DNA of 64,000 nucleotides from Kocuria subflava (GTDB taxonomy: Bacteria > Actinomycetota > Actinomycetes > Actinomycetales > Micrococcaceae), in the NCBI RefSeq assembly GCF_012163155.1, contig NZ_JAAVUN010000002.1, positions 62,001-126,000 of the forward strand. Reading direction: 5' to 3'. Positions 2,224 to 57,154 of the stretch are shown here, piece by piece. Below the pieces are notes generated by a model that saw only the letters and a program-made list of their open reading frames with translations, was not told the DNA's origin and made no database searches. The first letter of the stretch is position 1. Every line of letters begins with the position of its first letter. The translations under genes and the position numbers were made by a program.

Positions 2224-3975
2224 GTGCGAACAACCGTCATGACCCCGCTCTCCCGCCAAGCAGCCTTGGATGCCATGGCGGCCACAGGGGAGGCAGGAAC
2301 CGCTGAGGGCAAGGAGCTGGACATCCTGGTGATCGGAGGCGGGGTCACCGGTGCCGGGATCGCCTTGGATGCGGCCACTCGTGGGCTTCGTGTGGGAATC
2401 GTGGAGGCTCAGGACTGGGCCGGTGGCACCTCCCGGTGGTCCTCAAAACTGGTGCACGGCGGCCTGCGGTATCTGCAGCAGCTGGATTTCAAACTGGTGG
2501 CGGAGGCGCTCAGTGAGCGCGAACGCCTGCTCTACACGCTGGCCCCACATCTGGTGAAGCCCGTGCCCTTCCTGTACCCGATCACTCGCCGCTTCTGGGA
2601 GCGGCCGTACGTGACAGCGGGCATCGGCCTCTACGACACTTTGGCGCATCTGGGCTCCAAGGTGGCTTCCATGCCTTTCCATCGCCACCTCACGAACCGT
2701 GGCGTGCGCCGAGCCTTTCCCAGCATCAAACCAGGCACCATGGTGGGTGCCGTCAAGTACTGGGACGGCAAGGTGGATGATGCCCGCCTGGTCCTCACAC
2801 TGGTCCGCACGGCAGTGGGTTACGGCGCACTGGCAGCCTCCCGGACCAAGGTCACCGGACTGCTCAAGAACGACGACGGTACGGTGACCGGGGCTCATGT
2901 GCGGGATCTGGAATCAAGTAGTGAGTTCACCATCCGGGCGCGCAAGGTCATCACGGCCACGGGCGTGTGGACCGAAGAGACTCAGGACCTGGCTGACACC
3001 GATGGAGGACTGAAGGTCCTGGCCTCCAAGGGCATCCACATTGTGGTGCCGCGTGAGCGCATCCAGGGGGAGGTAGGGCTGATCCTGCAAACGGAGAAGT
3101 CCGTGCTGTTCGTGATCCCGTGGGAGCACTACTGGTTGATCGGTACCACGGACACCGCCTACCACCAGGACATCTCCGCACCCGTGGCCACCGGTGCGGA
3201 CATCGACTACGTGATTGAGCACGCCAATGTGGTGCTGGACGATCCACTGACCCGGGACGATGTGATTGGTACGTTTGCCGGTCTGCGGCCCTTGCTGCAA
3301 CCAGGTGTCAAGGACGGCACGGAGACTGCCTCCACCCAGGTCTCGCGTGAGCACACCGTGGCGGAGGTGACGCCGGGACTGATCTCCATTGCCGGCGGCA
3401 AGTTGACCACCTACCGGGTCATGGCGGAAGACGCCGTCGACTTCGCCCTGGGGGAGCAGCGTGCCAAGGAGCTGCCGTCCGTGACGGACCGGACGTTGCT
3501 GCACGGGGCTGACGGCTACCTGCCTTTGACTCGCCAGGTGGATCGTCTGGCGGCCGAGCACGGCTGGGAGACCGCCGTGGTGGAGCACCTGCTCAACCGT
3601 TACGGTTCGGGCATCGCGGAGATCGAAGCTCTGGTGGAGGAGCAGCCGGATCTGGCACAGCCCCTGGGTGGTGCGCCCACCTATGTGCGGGCCGAGATCG
3701 TTCAGGCAGCACGCAACGAAGGTGCTTTGCACCTGGAAGACGTCTTTGAGACACGCACGCGGATGACCTACGACCAGCCTGACCACGGCCTCGCCGTCGT
3801 TGAGGAAGTGGGAGATCTGCTGGCCGCTGAGCTGGGATGGGATCCCGAGCGGCGTGCCGCTGAGGTCGATGCCTACAAGGCCCGATGCGCAGCGGAGGAT
3901 GCCGCAGCAAGAACCACGGACGATCCTGCCGCCGCTGCGGCCCGTGCTGCGGTACCGTCCCTCCAAACACTGTGA
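2224..3975 (+). CDS. glpD: Aerobic glycerol-3-phosphate dehydrogenase, second copy
   Basis: Full-length GlpD of 583 residues, oxidising glycerol-3-phosphate to dihydroxyacetone phosphate with FAD and quinone. The FAD dinucleotide motif GGGVTG is at about residues 38-43, followed by GGTSRWSSKLVHGGLRYL; the C-terminal GlpD domain ends near residue 560. The GTG at 2224 is preferred because GAGG lies 8 bases upstream (2212-2215); ATG 2239 is possible but has no ribosome binding site. It is the complete paralogue of the gene at 1-1028. It is followed after 92 bp by glpF and then glpK, so the three probably act as one glycerol uptake and oxidation unit, likely under the divergent SorC regulator. 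Confidence 0.95.
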   Translation: MRTTVMTPLSRQAALDAMAATGEAGTAEGKELDILVIGGGVTGAGIALDAATRGLRVGIVEAQDWAGGTSRWSSKLVHGGLRYLQQLDFKLVAEALSERERLLYTLAPHLVKPVPFLYPITRRFWERPYVTAGIGLYDTLAHLGSKVASMPFHRHLTNRGVRRAFPSIKPGTMVGAVKYWDGKVDDARLVLTLVRTAVGYGALAASRTKVTGLLKNDDGTVTGAHVRDLESSSEFTIRARKVITATGVWTEETQDLADTDGGLKVLASKGIHIVVPRERIQGEVGLILQTEKSVLFVIPWEHYWLIGTTDTAYHQDISAPVATGADIDYVIEHANVVLDDPLTRDDVIGTFAGLRPLLQPGVKDGTETASTQVSREHTVAEVTPGLISIAGGKLTTYRVMAEDAVDFALGEQRAKELPSVTDRTLLHGADGYLPLTRQVDRLAAEHGWETAVVEHLLNRYGSGIAEIEALVEEQPDLAQPLGGAPTYVRAEIVQAARNEGALHLEDVFETRTRMTYDQPDHGLAVVEEVGDLLAAELGWDPERRAAEVDAYKARCAAEDAAARTTDDPAAAAARAAVPSLQTL

Positions 3976-6550: not shown

Positions 6551-6614
6551 CGCCGAGACCGAGGTTTCTGCCCGCCTGCAACCCCTGTGGCGGGCAGAAA
6601 TCTCGGTCTTGGCG
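6551..6614. repeat. Hairpin repeat family 1, copy A
   Basis: A 64-bp inverted repeat with 26-bp arms (two mismatches) and a 12-base loop, TGCAACCCCTGT. It begins 14 bp after the glpK stop and ends directly against the stop codon of the DUF559 gene at 6615. Here it could end transcription from both sides, but a second copy at 7692-7755 (58 of 64 positions identical by eye) in the same orientation lies upstream of that gene, where a terminator has no use. Confidence 0.9.
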
Positions 6615-7589
6615 TCAGTGCAGGTCTCTTAGCCACCTCCGCAAGGCCATCAAGCGCTGGCGCGATTGCAGATCGTCCATGACGACCACTCGAACGTCCC
6701 ACCCGTCGTCGCGAAGTTCATTCAGACGTCCGGCCTCATCGCGATACTGCCGCCAGTTGAGGTGGTGAACTTTCCCGTTGTACTCAAGAGCTTTGCGGCG
6801 CTGCTTCCACGCCAGGTCCAGGTACACCTTGCGTCCGGATGACAGCACCACTGGCAAGTTGTGGGCCGGTGGTGGGGCACCCAACTCAATGACCACCAGG
6901 CGCAGGACCGTCTCCATGGGAGACCACACATTGGGAGCGGCTTGATTCAACGCTTGGAACAGGAGTGCTTTCCCTCGGGTACCGGGGGCAATGCCATGCA
7001 GTTGCGCCATCAGATCTCCCGGCTGAAGCTGGAGGGGCTGCCCCGCTTCGTCAACAGCTCGAGCGAGCACGTTGTCCGCAGCCACGACCGCGCGCCACCC
7101 ACGTTGCCACTTCTGGAGGGCGAGCAGAGTGGGCAATGCTGCGGTGACCTGGCTGCCCCAAGGTCCTGATTGCAGGGTGTGATGGGCAGCCAACTTACGC
7201 ACCACGACGTCGTTGCCACGCCACAGCTTGTGCCCGTTCGGGACAACGATCTCCGGTGCAGGGTTCCAAGGAGTCCAGGTGCGGGCCTGACCCAGAACGC
7301 CATCCACCCAGTTCATGCCCCACATGAGAGGAATCTGCAGTGCCGCTGCCGCGCAGAGTCCGGAGACGGCTGCGTGGGGCACAGCTGAGGCGATCAGTGC
7401 ACTGACCTCCCACGGCTGCAGGTCTGTCGGTGCGATGATGCCGTCCCATTGCGCCCACAGCCCGTGGGTCAGCGCCACCATGGAGGGGTCACGTTGCAGA
7501 GACCGGGTGCGGCGACCCCAACGCGCGGTGGTGTCGATCTGCGGGATGGGAAATCGCTGGGGCAGCGGTTCGAGGTACATGGTGGGCAC
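6615..7589 (-). CDS. DUF559-type PD-(D/E)XK nuclease-like protein, copy 1
   Basis: A 324-residue protein with a C-terminal domain of the DUF559/very-short-patch-repair-like endonuclease fold. Candidate catalytic residues are Glu226 in SPMET, Asp258 in YLDLAW and Glu269 in ALEYNG, in the order of the PD-(D/E)XK superfamily; the end reads LRDDGWDVRVVVMDD. The N-terminal half is weakly conserved and may be a target-recognition or AbiEi-like region. The GTG start gives MPT..., matching the paralogue at 55751-56740. The gene sits alone between hairpins 6551-6614 and 7692-7755. Nuclease activity and target are not shown; a role in repair, defence or mobility is equally possible. Confidence 0.8.
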   Translation of the reverse strand: MPTMYLEPLPQRFPIPQIDTTARWGRRTRSLQRDPSMVALTHGLWAQWDGIIAPTDLQPWEVSALIASAVPHAAVSGLCAAAALQIPLMWGMNWVDGVLGQARTWTPWNPAPEIVVPNGHKLWRGNDVVVRKLAAHHTLQSGPWGSQVTAALPTLLALQKWQRGWRAVVAADNVLARAVDEAGQPLQLQPGDLMAQLHGIAPGTRGKALLFQALNQAAPNVWSPMETVLRLVVIELGAPPPAHNLPVVLSSGRKVYLDLAWKQRRKALEYNGKVHHLNWRQYRDEAGRLNELRDDGWDVRVVVMDDLQSRQRLMALRRWLRDLH

Positions 7590-7691
7590 GCTATGTGCGG
7601 CCGATTCCGCCCGTGCAGGTTGTCCACAGCCCGGAGGGAATACACCAGGTGGTCAGGACAACTTCTCCGCCTGTGGAGGACCTCTTCCTTC

Positions 7692-7755
7692 CGCTGAGAC
7701 CGAGGTTTCTGCCCGCCTGCAACCCCTGTGGCGGGCCGAAACCTCGGTTTCGTCG
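7692..7755. repeat. Hairpin repeat family 1, copy B
   Basis: A 64-bp inverted repeat matching copy A in sequence, loop and orientation, differing at about 6 positions. It lies 103 bp upstream of the DUF559 start and just before the probable rpsD promoter, that is, between two divergent genes, so it is unlikely to be a terminator. Confidence 0.9.
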
Positions 7756-7760
7756 GGGGC

Positions 7761-55602: not shown

Positions 55603-55684
55603 CGGTTGAGCCGGCTCGGTGTTCGGTTTCGACCACCGATAGGCACAATTCGTGGCGGAACCGAACATGGAGTGGGCGCAACCG
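55603..55684. repeat. Hairpin repeat family 2, copy L
   Basis: An 82-bp element. Inner arms GTTCGGTTTCGACCAC (55621-55636) and GTGGCGGAACCGAAC (55652-55666) pair; outer CGGTTGAGC and GCGCAACCG also pair. It lies 66 bp from the stop of the second DUF559 gene. The same 82-bp layout returns at 56831-56912. Confidence 0.8.
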
Positions 55685-55750
55685 TTCTGAGGGTTCGCGC
55701 GGGTTGGTCGATCCTCCGAGCGTGCGCGGGTCGGATCCACGCTGGAGGGC

Positions 55751-56740
55751 TCAAACCAAGCGCTGGGCGAGCCAGCTCAGCCACGCCTCCGCCCGGCGCG
55801 GATCCTGGACGTCACGGGTGACCAGAACTCGCAGATCCCAACCGTCATCGCGGAGCAGGTCCAGGCGGTGCATTTCATCTCCATACGTGTGTCGGTCGCT
55901 CGCGTGGACGGCGCCGTTGTACTCGATTCCAACTCGAGCTTCCTCCCATGCGAGGTCAAGATGCACAGTCCGCATCCTTCCGTGATCGTCCACCTGGATG
56001 GTCAGGTTCATCGTCGGGGCCGGCAGCCCGGCGCGCCTCACCATCATGCGCACCAACGTTTCCATGGGCGACCACGTCCGCGCCTGAGCCAGCGGCAACA
56101 GGTCCCTGATCCGGGTCGAGCCGATCGAACTGACGAGATTGGATTCGAGTACTGCCGCGATCTGCTGCGCAGTACACGGACCGTAGCGTTTGGCCCCGAC
56201 CCGAACGTGCATGCCCATCAAGTGGTCCAGGCAGGCCACGATTCTCCAGTCCGTGAGAAAAGGTGCAGCCCAGACAAGGGCTTCCACCAGATTCACCGTC
56301 TGAGAGTCCCAGAGTCCGGTCAGGGCCGCTCCGTCCGAGCCCTTGGTGATCAAGAGGTCCGATCTGTGCTGATGTCCGCGTGTTCCCGAATAGGACAAGT
56401 GCGGCCTGCGCAGTTCCTGCTCCAGGTCCTGAGCACGCGGCGCACGGGGCAGCGTGAGACCATCACGTATCCAGACCGGTGTGTGCCCCACAGGCAGGCC
56501 GAACATCTGTGCGGCCGAAAAGCCTGCCACCCGGAAGTTGGTGCCAAAGTGCTGTTGGGCCAGAGCGGCAGTTTCCACGGAGTTCAGTGGTGCCAGACCC
56601 GGGGTGCCTCGAGCCCAGATGCCTCTGAGCACTTCAGCAAATTCGGGCAGTGCGTCCATTTGCCGTTTGCGCAGATTCCAGTGCGCTGTGGTGGCCACAA
56701 CGGGTCGCGGCTGTCGCTGCGGGTAGTGAAATGTCGGCAT
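55751..56740 (-). CDS. DUF559-type PD-(D/E)XK nuclease-like protein, copy 2
   Basis: A 329-residue paralogue of 6615-7589. Both begin MPT, share WSPMET, LDLAW, EYNG and LRDDGWD, and differ elsewhere. Candidate catalytic residues are Glu227, Asp262 and Glu273. It stands alone on the minus strand between the crt operon and lepA, framed by 82-bp hairpins at 55603-55684 and 56831-56912. It differs from copy 1 in its N-terminal half, as expected if that half reads a different target. Function unknown. Confidence 0.8.
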   Translation of the reverse strand: MPTFHYPQRQPRPVVATTAHWNLRKRQMDALPEFAEVLRGIWARGTPGLAPLNSVETAALAQQHFGTNFRVAGFSAAQMFGLPVGHTPVWIRDGLTLPRAPRAQDLEQELRRPHLSYSGTRGHQHRSDLLITKGSDGAALTGLWDSQTVNLVEALVWAAPFLTDWRIVACLDHLMGMHVRVGAKRYGPCTAQQIAAVLESNLVSSIGSTRIRDLLPLAQARTWSPMETLVRMMVRRAGLPAPTMNLTIQVDDHGRMRTVHLDLAWEEARVGIEYNGAVHASDRHTYGDEMHRLDLLRDDGWDLRVLVTRDVQDPRRAEAWLSWLAQRLV

Positions 56741-57154
56741 GCAGTCACGCTAAACACCCCAGGGGTGCGTACATCAGTTATCCACAGGGTGATCTGAGGG
56801 AGAAGTACAGAGGACCTGGCCTGCGGTGACCGGTTCTGTCACCTCTGTGTTCGGTCTCGACCACTCCAGGGACCTTCTACTGGCGAATCCGAACTCCGGC
56901 GTGGCGTAACCGTACATGGAGGCGGAACTCAGCAACGGTCCAAGAAGCGACCAGCAGTCAGGCGGGGGAGGAGGGGGACGACGACGCCCGCGGGGTTCCG
57001 TCACGGGGGCAGCCACCCGGTGCTCCAGAGAGACCCCGCGCGCATGAGAGACTAAGTGACTGATCCATCCGGGCCGGATGGTGCGGCGTCGTCGTGAAAA
57101 GGCGAGGCGAGCCATCCGGGCCCTGGAATTGCTGACCGTCATGAAAGGCCCGCT
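56741..57154. other. Divergent gene-free region between DUF559 copy 2 and lepA
   Basis: 414 bp with hairpin copy R, two ACGACGACGC copies facing each other (56978-56987 and 57086-57095) and a small hairpin CCATCCG-N3-CGGATGG (57065-57081). Promoters of both neighbours must be here; I could not place them. No supportable gene. Confidence 0.5.
56831..56912. repeat. Hairpin repeat family 2, copy R
   Basis: Same length, orientation and arm spacing as copy L, with about 53 of 82 positions identical by eye. Arms are conserved and the loop is not, which suggests selection on the stem. It lies 91 bp upstream of the DUF559 start. Confidence 0.75.

Follow-up and report, generated by a model that had tools for sequence, protein, structure and literature searches.

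Within a 64,000-nt stretch of a Kocuria subflava contig (NZ_JAAVUN010000002.1, positions 62,001 to 126,000), referred to here as the window, a nuclease-like gene lies between two copies of a long imperfect palindrome, and a paralogous gene elsewhere in the window lies between two palindromes of another type. This arrangement raises the question of what ties a nuclease-like gene to a palindrome pair of its own. The original prediction, made from the sequence of the window, proposed that each protein of the family goes with its own hairpin and offered co-variation of the hairpins with the N-terminal half of the protein as a test.

Re-reading of the sequence confirmed two 82-nt elements of equal length and orientation, L and R, and the nuclease-like gene that they bracket (Table 1). 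The start of L is 1228 nt from the start of R, and the two are identical at 53 of 82 positions, with a top 82-nt match of 46 among 384 random flank pairs of the window as control. The arms are conserved and the loops diverged, as had been described: identity amounts to 27/34 in the left arm and 22/32 in the right arm vs 4/16 in the loop. In single-stranded DNA, folding of L is strong (z −6.4 on the plus and −4.6 on the minus strand) and that of R weak (z −1.1 and −0.7), so that the description of both elements as hairpins is well supported for L, whereas R looks like a decayed copy of L. The local-alignment score of L against R is 34, just below 35, the 99th percentile of cross-gene pairs, and the pair around the paralogous gene, with a score of 101, is much stronger. 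A core of the form GGTTTCGRCC had also been claimed for both hairpin families of the window; by eye GGTTTC alone is common to them, and the best hairpin score between paralogs of one genome is 24, so this part of the prediction was not upheld. The neighbours of the window gene, read by eye, are presumably a membrane prenyltransferase-like gene and a LepA-like gene.

Table 1. Positions of the two family genes and their flanking hairpins in the window
Feature	Position	Strand	Description
Left hairpin L	55603..55684	+	82-nt imperfect palindrome; ends CGGTT...AACCG; CGGTTNCGNCCAC-like motif twice per arm, 21 nt apart
Nuclease-like gene, 329 aa	55751..56740	-	ORF; conserved columns; weak match to Pfam MTES_1575
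Right hairpin R	56831..56912	+	82 nt; direct copy of L; folds weakly
Left hairpin of the paralog	6551..6614	+	64 nt; unlike the 82-nt family
Paralog gene, 324 aa	6615..7589	-	same protein family; 31% identity over match 6627-7565
Right hairpin of the paralog	7691..7756	+	66 nt; flank score 101

The genome from which the window was taken contains five matches to the window protein. Four are intact family genes, each framed by a palindrome pair, and these pairs differ from one another in sequence; the fifth is a gene remnant with one long palindrome beside it. The gene on contig C124 is framed by two nested hairpin pairs belonging to different families (L002 1344-1488 and 2533-2672, with scores of 64 and 76). 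Solo hairpins, i.e., hairpins away from a family gene, that resemble the inner C124 type (TTTGACAGGGAAATGACC) are present in genomes G000 and G007.

Palindrome pairs around other members of the family

Relatives of the window protein were found by search in at least 69 of 99 related genomes. We assembled 94 loci with a matching ORF, comprising 30 returned by the search, 60 hand-picked among the matches listed and 4 from the genome of the window, a sample that is not random. From these, 81 loci had an ORF of 250–450 aa, and 79 of them offered flanks of 150 nt or more to either side. Flanks were counted as alike, in direct or inverted orientation, above a score of 35, the 99th percentile of 1556 cross-gene comparisons; this is a strict cut, since orthologous loci probably account for the highest cross-gene scores (up to 426). 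Flanks were alike beyond the cut in 63 of the 79 genes, and a strong palindrome was detected on both sides in 55 of the 79, vs 10 of 158 shuffled flanks and 13 of 79 intragenic stretches. None of 363 random 1-kb intervals of the window exceeded the cut, and among the 64 window ORFs of at least 250 aa only two did, namely the first family gene (101) and an ORF with an internal repeat (39) that by eye we take to be carB. With cruder gene boundaries, 47 of 93 loci were above the 99th percentile; a looser scoring (mismatch −2) gave 37/79 genes for direct and 51/79 for direct or inverted likeness and was too permissive.

A second set of 80 loci was found with alignment A4 in named genomes, from which 5 duplicates and 4 loci with short flanks were left out. 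Flank boundaries were drawn in another way for this set, and the threshold of 35 was adopted from the null of the 79-gene survey. With these settings, 42 of 45 loci, mostly from Arthrobacter and Pseudarthrobacter, passed and 40 had palindromes on both sides, and among 26 mostly mycobacterial loci 15 passed the flank score and 7 had palindromes on both sides. The paired-hairpin observation is real and general, and the association between gene and hairpin is solid. The nuclease-hairpin type is common in the order to which the window genome belongs and was also found in some of the loci examined from mycobacteria and Micromonospora. Pairs of hairpins do frame other genes of the family, and the earlier argument that two such cases speak against chance is borne out by the comparison of 63/79 genes with 0/363 random intervals.

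The hairpins are private to their genes. Among 33 genes with accepted pairs from 10 genomes, none of the 43 within-genome paralog pairs had a hairpin in common. When proteins were more than 80% identical, the hairpin was common in 5 of 5 pairs; all five pairs are at the same locus, so the common hairpin there reflects shared descent. For proteins 50–70% identical, similar hairpins were found in 2 of 13 pairs (scores 73 and 34). Both L and R differ at the orthologous locus L001/L013, where the proteins are 57% identical, and at the orthologous locus of L060 and L062/L064, where they are 64–65% identical. The hairpins also differ between L002 and L020 (63%; best score 17), and the two hairpins of L020 do not match each other (22). 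The turnover of the hairpins is faster than that of the protein. The proposal that each protein goes with its own hairpin was thus supported as regards privacy, while the tight tracking of protein type that it implied was not seen at 50–70% identity. Rank correlation between hairpin similarity and protein similarity was weak throughout (rho 0.05 for residues 1–110, 0.04 for residues 111–205 and 0.10 for residues 206–329), and therefore the proposed co-variation with the N-terminal half of the protein was not found.

In the 54 genes with accepted pairs, the median hairpin length was 64.5 nt, and the two copies were clearly direct in 21 genes, inverted in 13 and undecided in 20. The arms are internally repetitive: in the 82-nt family a motif recurs at a shift of 21 nt with an identity of 0.71 vs 0.40 at the next best shift, and the arms of the family in genome G007 also peak at 21 nt (0.48 vs 0.33), with extra 21-nt units in some copies. 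At L057/L058 the flanks repeat a motif of about 20 nt in arrays, with a spacing of about 40 nt. Arm pairing was analyzed for 150 of 218 hairpin matches and revealed many paired arm changes, with 91.5% paired cells vs 84.6% after shuffling, 291 double-change cells vs 96 after shuffling and 38–85 after sliding, and a covariation score of 0.237 vs 0.109 after shuffling, figures that are all inflated because every palindrome enters once per strand and the model itself guided the alignment of the rows. Two other measures, pairs showing a double change (15 vs 14.0) and further pair types (41 vs 39.1), did not go beyond the shuffles. A function of the hairpins as RNA was considered and rejected, since arm mismatches on the gene-sense strand (G-T 70, A-C 93) displayed no G-U bias.

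The protein family and its inheritance

The window gene had been called a DUF559 gene. Its product is DUF559-like, weakly, and its best Pfam match is REase_MTES_1575 (E 0.0013, 19.2 bits), which is below the curated cut-off of 38.2. Among 57 relatives, 31 matched MTES_1575 and 11 matched DUF559 at E ≤0.01, with a best E of 3.6e-8. Pfam found no Y1/HUH domain in these 57 members; the only domains reported at this cut-off were MTES_1575, DUF559, DUF2726, RAP and AbiEi_4. Invariant or nearly invariant residues are S224, E227, T228, R231, N245, D262, E273, G276, H279, R292, G300 and W301, among which we assume by analogy that the acidic and histidine residues E227, D262, E273 and H279 form a PD-(D/E)XK active site. 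Comparison of the family profile with the PDB gave as best hit the structure 3r3p, 'mobile intron protein', a weak match (E 0.037) that covers the nuclease region including the E-x-N-G motif and the G-W/Y position; we take 3r3p to be the Vsr-like homing enzyme I-Bth0305I. The AbiEi matches in Pfam are weak. Up to 15 of the 57 relatives match a single PADLOC AbiEi model and one relative matches a restriction enzyme model, and the window protein has no PADLOC match.

Above 62% protein identity, the two loci of a pair agree in their neighbours on one side or both, directly or via a third locus, which indicates that inheritance is mainly vertical. The exception is L054/L055, an unplaced pair that matches in the gene alone, with L055 at a contig end. 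In named loci the gene occupies one place in about 41 species, and it is often less conserved than its neighbours. In ten chosen gene pairs dN/dS ranged between 0.06 and 0.21, and the gene is under purifying selection. Plasmids and phages were considered as carriers of the gene and rejected: the Arthrobacter protein has matches in 6 plasmid and 2 phage records, all below 60% identity.

The PADLOC matches to AbiEi models and to a restriction enzyme model, together with a nuclease of restriction type, could suggest a defence or restriction-like enzyme for which the palindromes mark self DNA. We consider this highly improbable, given that no toxin or methylase partner was recognised by eye beside the window gene, and that the hairpins, as long intergenic units present in tens of copies, differ from frequent short sites.

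Hairpin copies away from the gene

The same hairpins also occur as solos, which alters the meaning of a gene found with a hairpin pair. Our hairpin searches scored the best 36 or 150 candidates per genome, and hence all copy numbers are lower bounds. In the window's own genome, a covariance model of the 82-nt family matched at least 8 sites. Besides the pair, these are six solos, among them one with another core, GGTACGCAAATGACCAC. Among the best-scored candidates of 26 other genomes of the genus, G007 alone matched the 82-nt model. The GGTACGCAAATGACCAC core resembles the core framing the G007 orthologue, which occupies the same genomic place. A model of this type matched at least 24 sites in G007, including the pair, and several weaker ones in the window's own genome. 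Of the G007 solos that were read, 17 of 21 have the TACGCA core that is G007's own, and 4 have other cores. Twelve compared G007 copies are parts of a longer repeat that is closest to the right end of the gene unit.

Individual copies displayed further features. The solo at L108 (G000 C207:6800-6883) is a possible hybrid, in which a core of the G007 type is enclosed by outer arms resembling the window family. In G007, L172 and L181 carry flanking sequence similar to that preceding the LepA-like gene, as though copying had overrun the hairpin; L172 sits near a contig end.

Outside these two genomes, G039 has its own pair and 8 solos, and G050 has a pair with no clear solo detected by BLAST, where the hairpin model gave at least 7 matches. 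The Arthrobacter hairpin model had matches in 43 of 149 family genomes. With deeper scoring, eight relatives contained at least 24–81 matches each, corresponding to about 12–40 sites since both strands and the gene pairs are counted; a gene pair alone yields at most 4 matches. Gene and hairpin co-occur: at least 7 matches were present in 20 of 26 genomes with a close gene vs 4 of 123 others (G124, G128, G146 and G194), with a Fisher probability of 6.5e-16 in which relatedness is ignored and for which the cut-offs (gene E ≤1e-70, 7 matches) were set after the data had been seen. At 3 or more matches the comparison was 20/26 vs 7/123. Hairpins without a close gene reached at least 46 matches in G146 and at least 28 in G124. 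Three genomes with a close gene (G107, G137 and G200) had no hairpin match among the scored candidates, and three (G053, G060 and G141) had 1–2 matches.

Capture of cargo genes between hairpin pairs was considered and rejected; pairs 1.69 kb apart in G039 enclose ordinary-looking genes and were taken as neighbouring solos. In one Pseudarthrobacter (L211, 3497-4136), the right hairpin occurs in two copies that enclose an additional ORF of about 200 aa, and these copies too were taken as neighbouring solos.

The solos avoid divergent promoters. Out of 47 solo loci, 22 had convergent and 21 tandem genes as neighbours and none had divergent ones, while 2 were called inside an ORF and 2 at an edge; the loci were accepted as solos directly from the hit list, and the gene calling was simple and crude. 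Half of the classified solos being between convergent genes would suit an explanation in which the hairpins are bidirectional terminators or independent repeats, spread in some other way, that came to stand beside the gene by chance or through a common preference of site. The hairpin populations without a close gene fit this explanation, and so does a terminator-like pattern at 56825-56843 that overlaps the left foot of R, one of three such patterns in the region vs 0.8 expected. The full hairpins L and R were nevertheless not reported as terminators, so a role as intrinsic terminators was rejected, although R may act as one, and no Rfam family matches the hairpins. Moreover, such repeats would not be expected to be private (0/43 paralog pairs) or to be paired around 63/79 and 42/45 family genes vs 0/363 intervals, and we regard this explanation as very unlikely.

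Presence and absence of the hairpin and the likeness to REPIN/RAYT

About 370 nt upstream of the left hairpin of the Arthrobacter gene, many species have another hairpin that others lack; the gene just after it is presumably DUF503. The same anchors were readable at 37 loci, of which 21 are filled. Of the filled loci, 13 are clean with 80–85 nt, and the others are longer, some with a second repeat inside. The clean empty loci L199, L200 and L208 contain 27–28 nt with one TCGAT, and the filled ones contain about one TCGAT at each foot. The unit present or absent at this site is about 54 nt. L215 (38 nt) is similar to the clean empty loci, L206 resembles a shrunken hairpin, and 11 other empty loci contain unrelated spacers. 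At this one site the whole hairpin unit is thus present in some genomes and absent in others, where a short repeat is left. By the well-supported branches of a tree of 35 nuclease genes, from which L238 and L253 with broken nuclease genes were left out, presence and absence require at least 6 changes. L208 is placed among filled relatives on the gene tree, so that this case at least looks like a near-precise loss of the hairpin.

Loci without the nuclease gene bear on the possibility of a homing nuclease gene, whose product would cut solo palindromes and whose repair would copy the gene in, leaving a palindrome on each side. At the L057/L058 locus, G012 has no gene and keeps one solo that is like the occupied flanks (32–49 vs ≤29 for 300 random stretches), as homing would predict, and G024 shows neither gene nor solo. 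Homing would also account for L and R being direct copies, and the nuclease region matches, although weakly, a Vsr-like homing endonuclease, the best solved relative of the profile (3r3p, E 0.037). At the window's own locus, however, G004 and G001 have neither gene nor palindrome, and G024, also without the gene, has a palindrome of score 14 that is unlike L and R. In contrast to Vsr-like homing endonucleases, the gene stays at one locus and was not seen in an intron or a coding gene: it has one site in about 41 species without having spread into solos, pairs more than 62% identical share the same locus except for the unplaceable L054/L055, and solos persist in genomes that have the gene. Because the gene site is fixed and the solos are intact, homing is disfavoured, and we consider it quite unlikely.

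The solos also bear on whether the protein is an AbiEi-like DNA-binding regulator with the palindromes as operators for autoregulation or chromosome architecture, the solos as other binding sites and the nuclease part as secondary. Similarity to the AbiE antitoxin AbiEi occurs in a minority of relatives, and binding of inverted repeats is a known feature of AbiEi proteins, which bind such repeats in their own promoter (PMC7319586). The spacing of the arm motif, twice at 21 nt or about two helical turns, would be compatible with this. Autoregulation, however, needs no pair on both sides of the gene, and operators do not form the main reading because 0/43 classified solos lie between divergent genes. 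A whole unit that comes and goes and leaves a short repeat likewise argues against it. Unlike in AbiE, a nuclease region follows the AbiEi-like part, palindromes stand on both sides, and no partner toxin gene, including AbiEii (DUF1814), was recognised next to the window gene when its neighbours were read by eye; PADLOC gave no match for the window protein. Overall, a regulator appears fairly unlikely.

Private pairing together with dispersal makes a nuclease that moves hairpins the most economical reading. We therefore favour a REPtron-like element in which a Vsr/DUF559-type nuclease probably replaces the HUH transposase, and we infer that this nuclease binds and cuts the hairpin and thereby drives its copying. 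In such an element, each hairpin type would have a single vertically inherited nuclease-like gene, placed between two copies of the long imperfect palindrome that belongs to it; without the gene, the same palindrome would form short non-autonomous inserts, mainly intergenic. The protein would have its PD-(D/E)XK region on the C-terminal side and, in some relatives, an AbiEi-like DNA-binding front. It may recognise the repeated arm motif, either in the duplex, at sites spaced by two helical turns, or in an extruded or single-stranded hairpin, and may cut or nick at the hairpin foot, whereupon repair or replication would copy the hairpin to short CGAT-like sites or remove it from them. Several observations count against a REPtron-like nuclease element, namely the hairpins without a close gene in G146 and G124, the six genomes with a close gene and at most 2 hairpin matches, the poor folding of R, the missing PADLOC match of the window protein and the mostly mycobacterial set with 15 of 26 loci passing. 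In addition, the empty site is consistent with near-precise loss, and slippage between TCGAT repeats would not require an enzyme.

The pattern is similar to that of the REPIN/RAYT systems, in which the enzyme gene is single-copy, largely vertical and flanked by its own palindrome type; several enzymes per genome with their own types, dispersed extragenic copies, excision and proposed co-evolution have been described as well (PMC3116915, PMC8266576, PMC3733652). The nuclease gene shares with them the flanking by private palindromes (63/79 and 42/45 loci; sharing in 0/43 paralog pairs), the single-copy and largely vertical gene with distinct paralogs within one genome, and the many dispersed, mainly extragenic hairpin copies, although the latter are not in every genome. 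Absence of the hairpin that looks like excision is a further point of likeness. In contrast to RAYT, the enzyme is not Y1/HUH (Pfam, 57 members) and its conserved residues are E, D, E and H. The hairpins are also longer (median 64.5 nt), with the palindrome extending over their whole length, compared with 20–40 bp for a single REP (PMC3733652). GTAG is absent at the foot of the window palindromes, where L and R end in CGGTT/AACCG (other families end otherwise, by eye), and the present elements were found in Actinobacteria. A REPtron-like pattern with a non-HUH enzyme means that the system would work like RAYT-REPIN without being a member of it.

The hairpins also resemble the CGTC-tagged REP families, which are short intergenic palindromes in many copies; the difference is that a candidate enzyme gene is framed by the repeat here. 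In the main text of the paper on the CGTC-tagged REPs, Arthrobacter, Kocuria and Actinobacteria do not appear (PMC3733652). The main text of the RepRanger survey counts REPs in one Arthrobacter and contains no mention of RAYT, transposase or endonuclease. Among the matches listed in the openly licensed literature, we found no title or beginning of an abstract describing a link between a nuclease gene and private palindromes, an absence that is not proof.

As regards the origin and persistence of REP-like palindromes, to our knowledge the only dedicated enzymes known so far are HUH transposases. The nucleases described here would add a second type of enzyme, unrelated to these and linked one-to-one with palindrome families, and would assign a role to proteins annotated merely as a domain of unknown function. 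More broadly, it is possible, with a chance that we put a little short of even, that Actinobacteria harbor REP-like mobile palindromes bred by PD-(D/E)XK (Vsr/DUF559-type) nucleases through a copy mechanism without HUH chemistry or a classical transposase, and that the specificities of nuclease and hairpin are re-invented together at a fixed locus, with L, R and the dispersed population being replaced in concert. The loci provide ready protein/hairpin pairs as well as presence/absence sites, and the changes of specificity at fixed loci form a natural series.

A second short repeat of about 55 nt (GGGCCCACGCCGGCAGGGTTCCCTGGCCGAGCTTGCGAGGCGAGGG...) occurs inside or beside the Arthrobacter hairpin, near 1900-2050 in L207, L209, L216, L245, L253 and L201 and after the right hairpin in L201, L207, L229 and L239. 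In L209 its orientation is opposite. In L228 the right hairpin (about 3435-3543) is split by an insert of about 53 nt.
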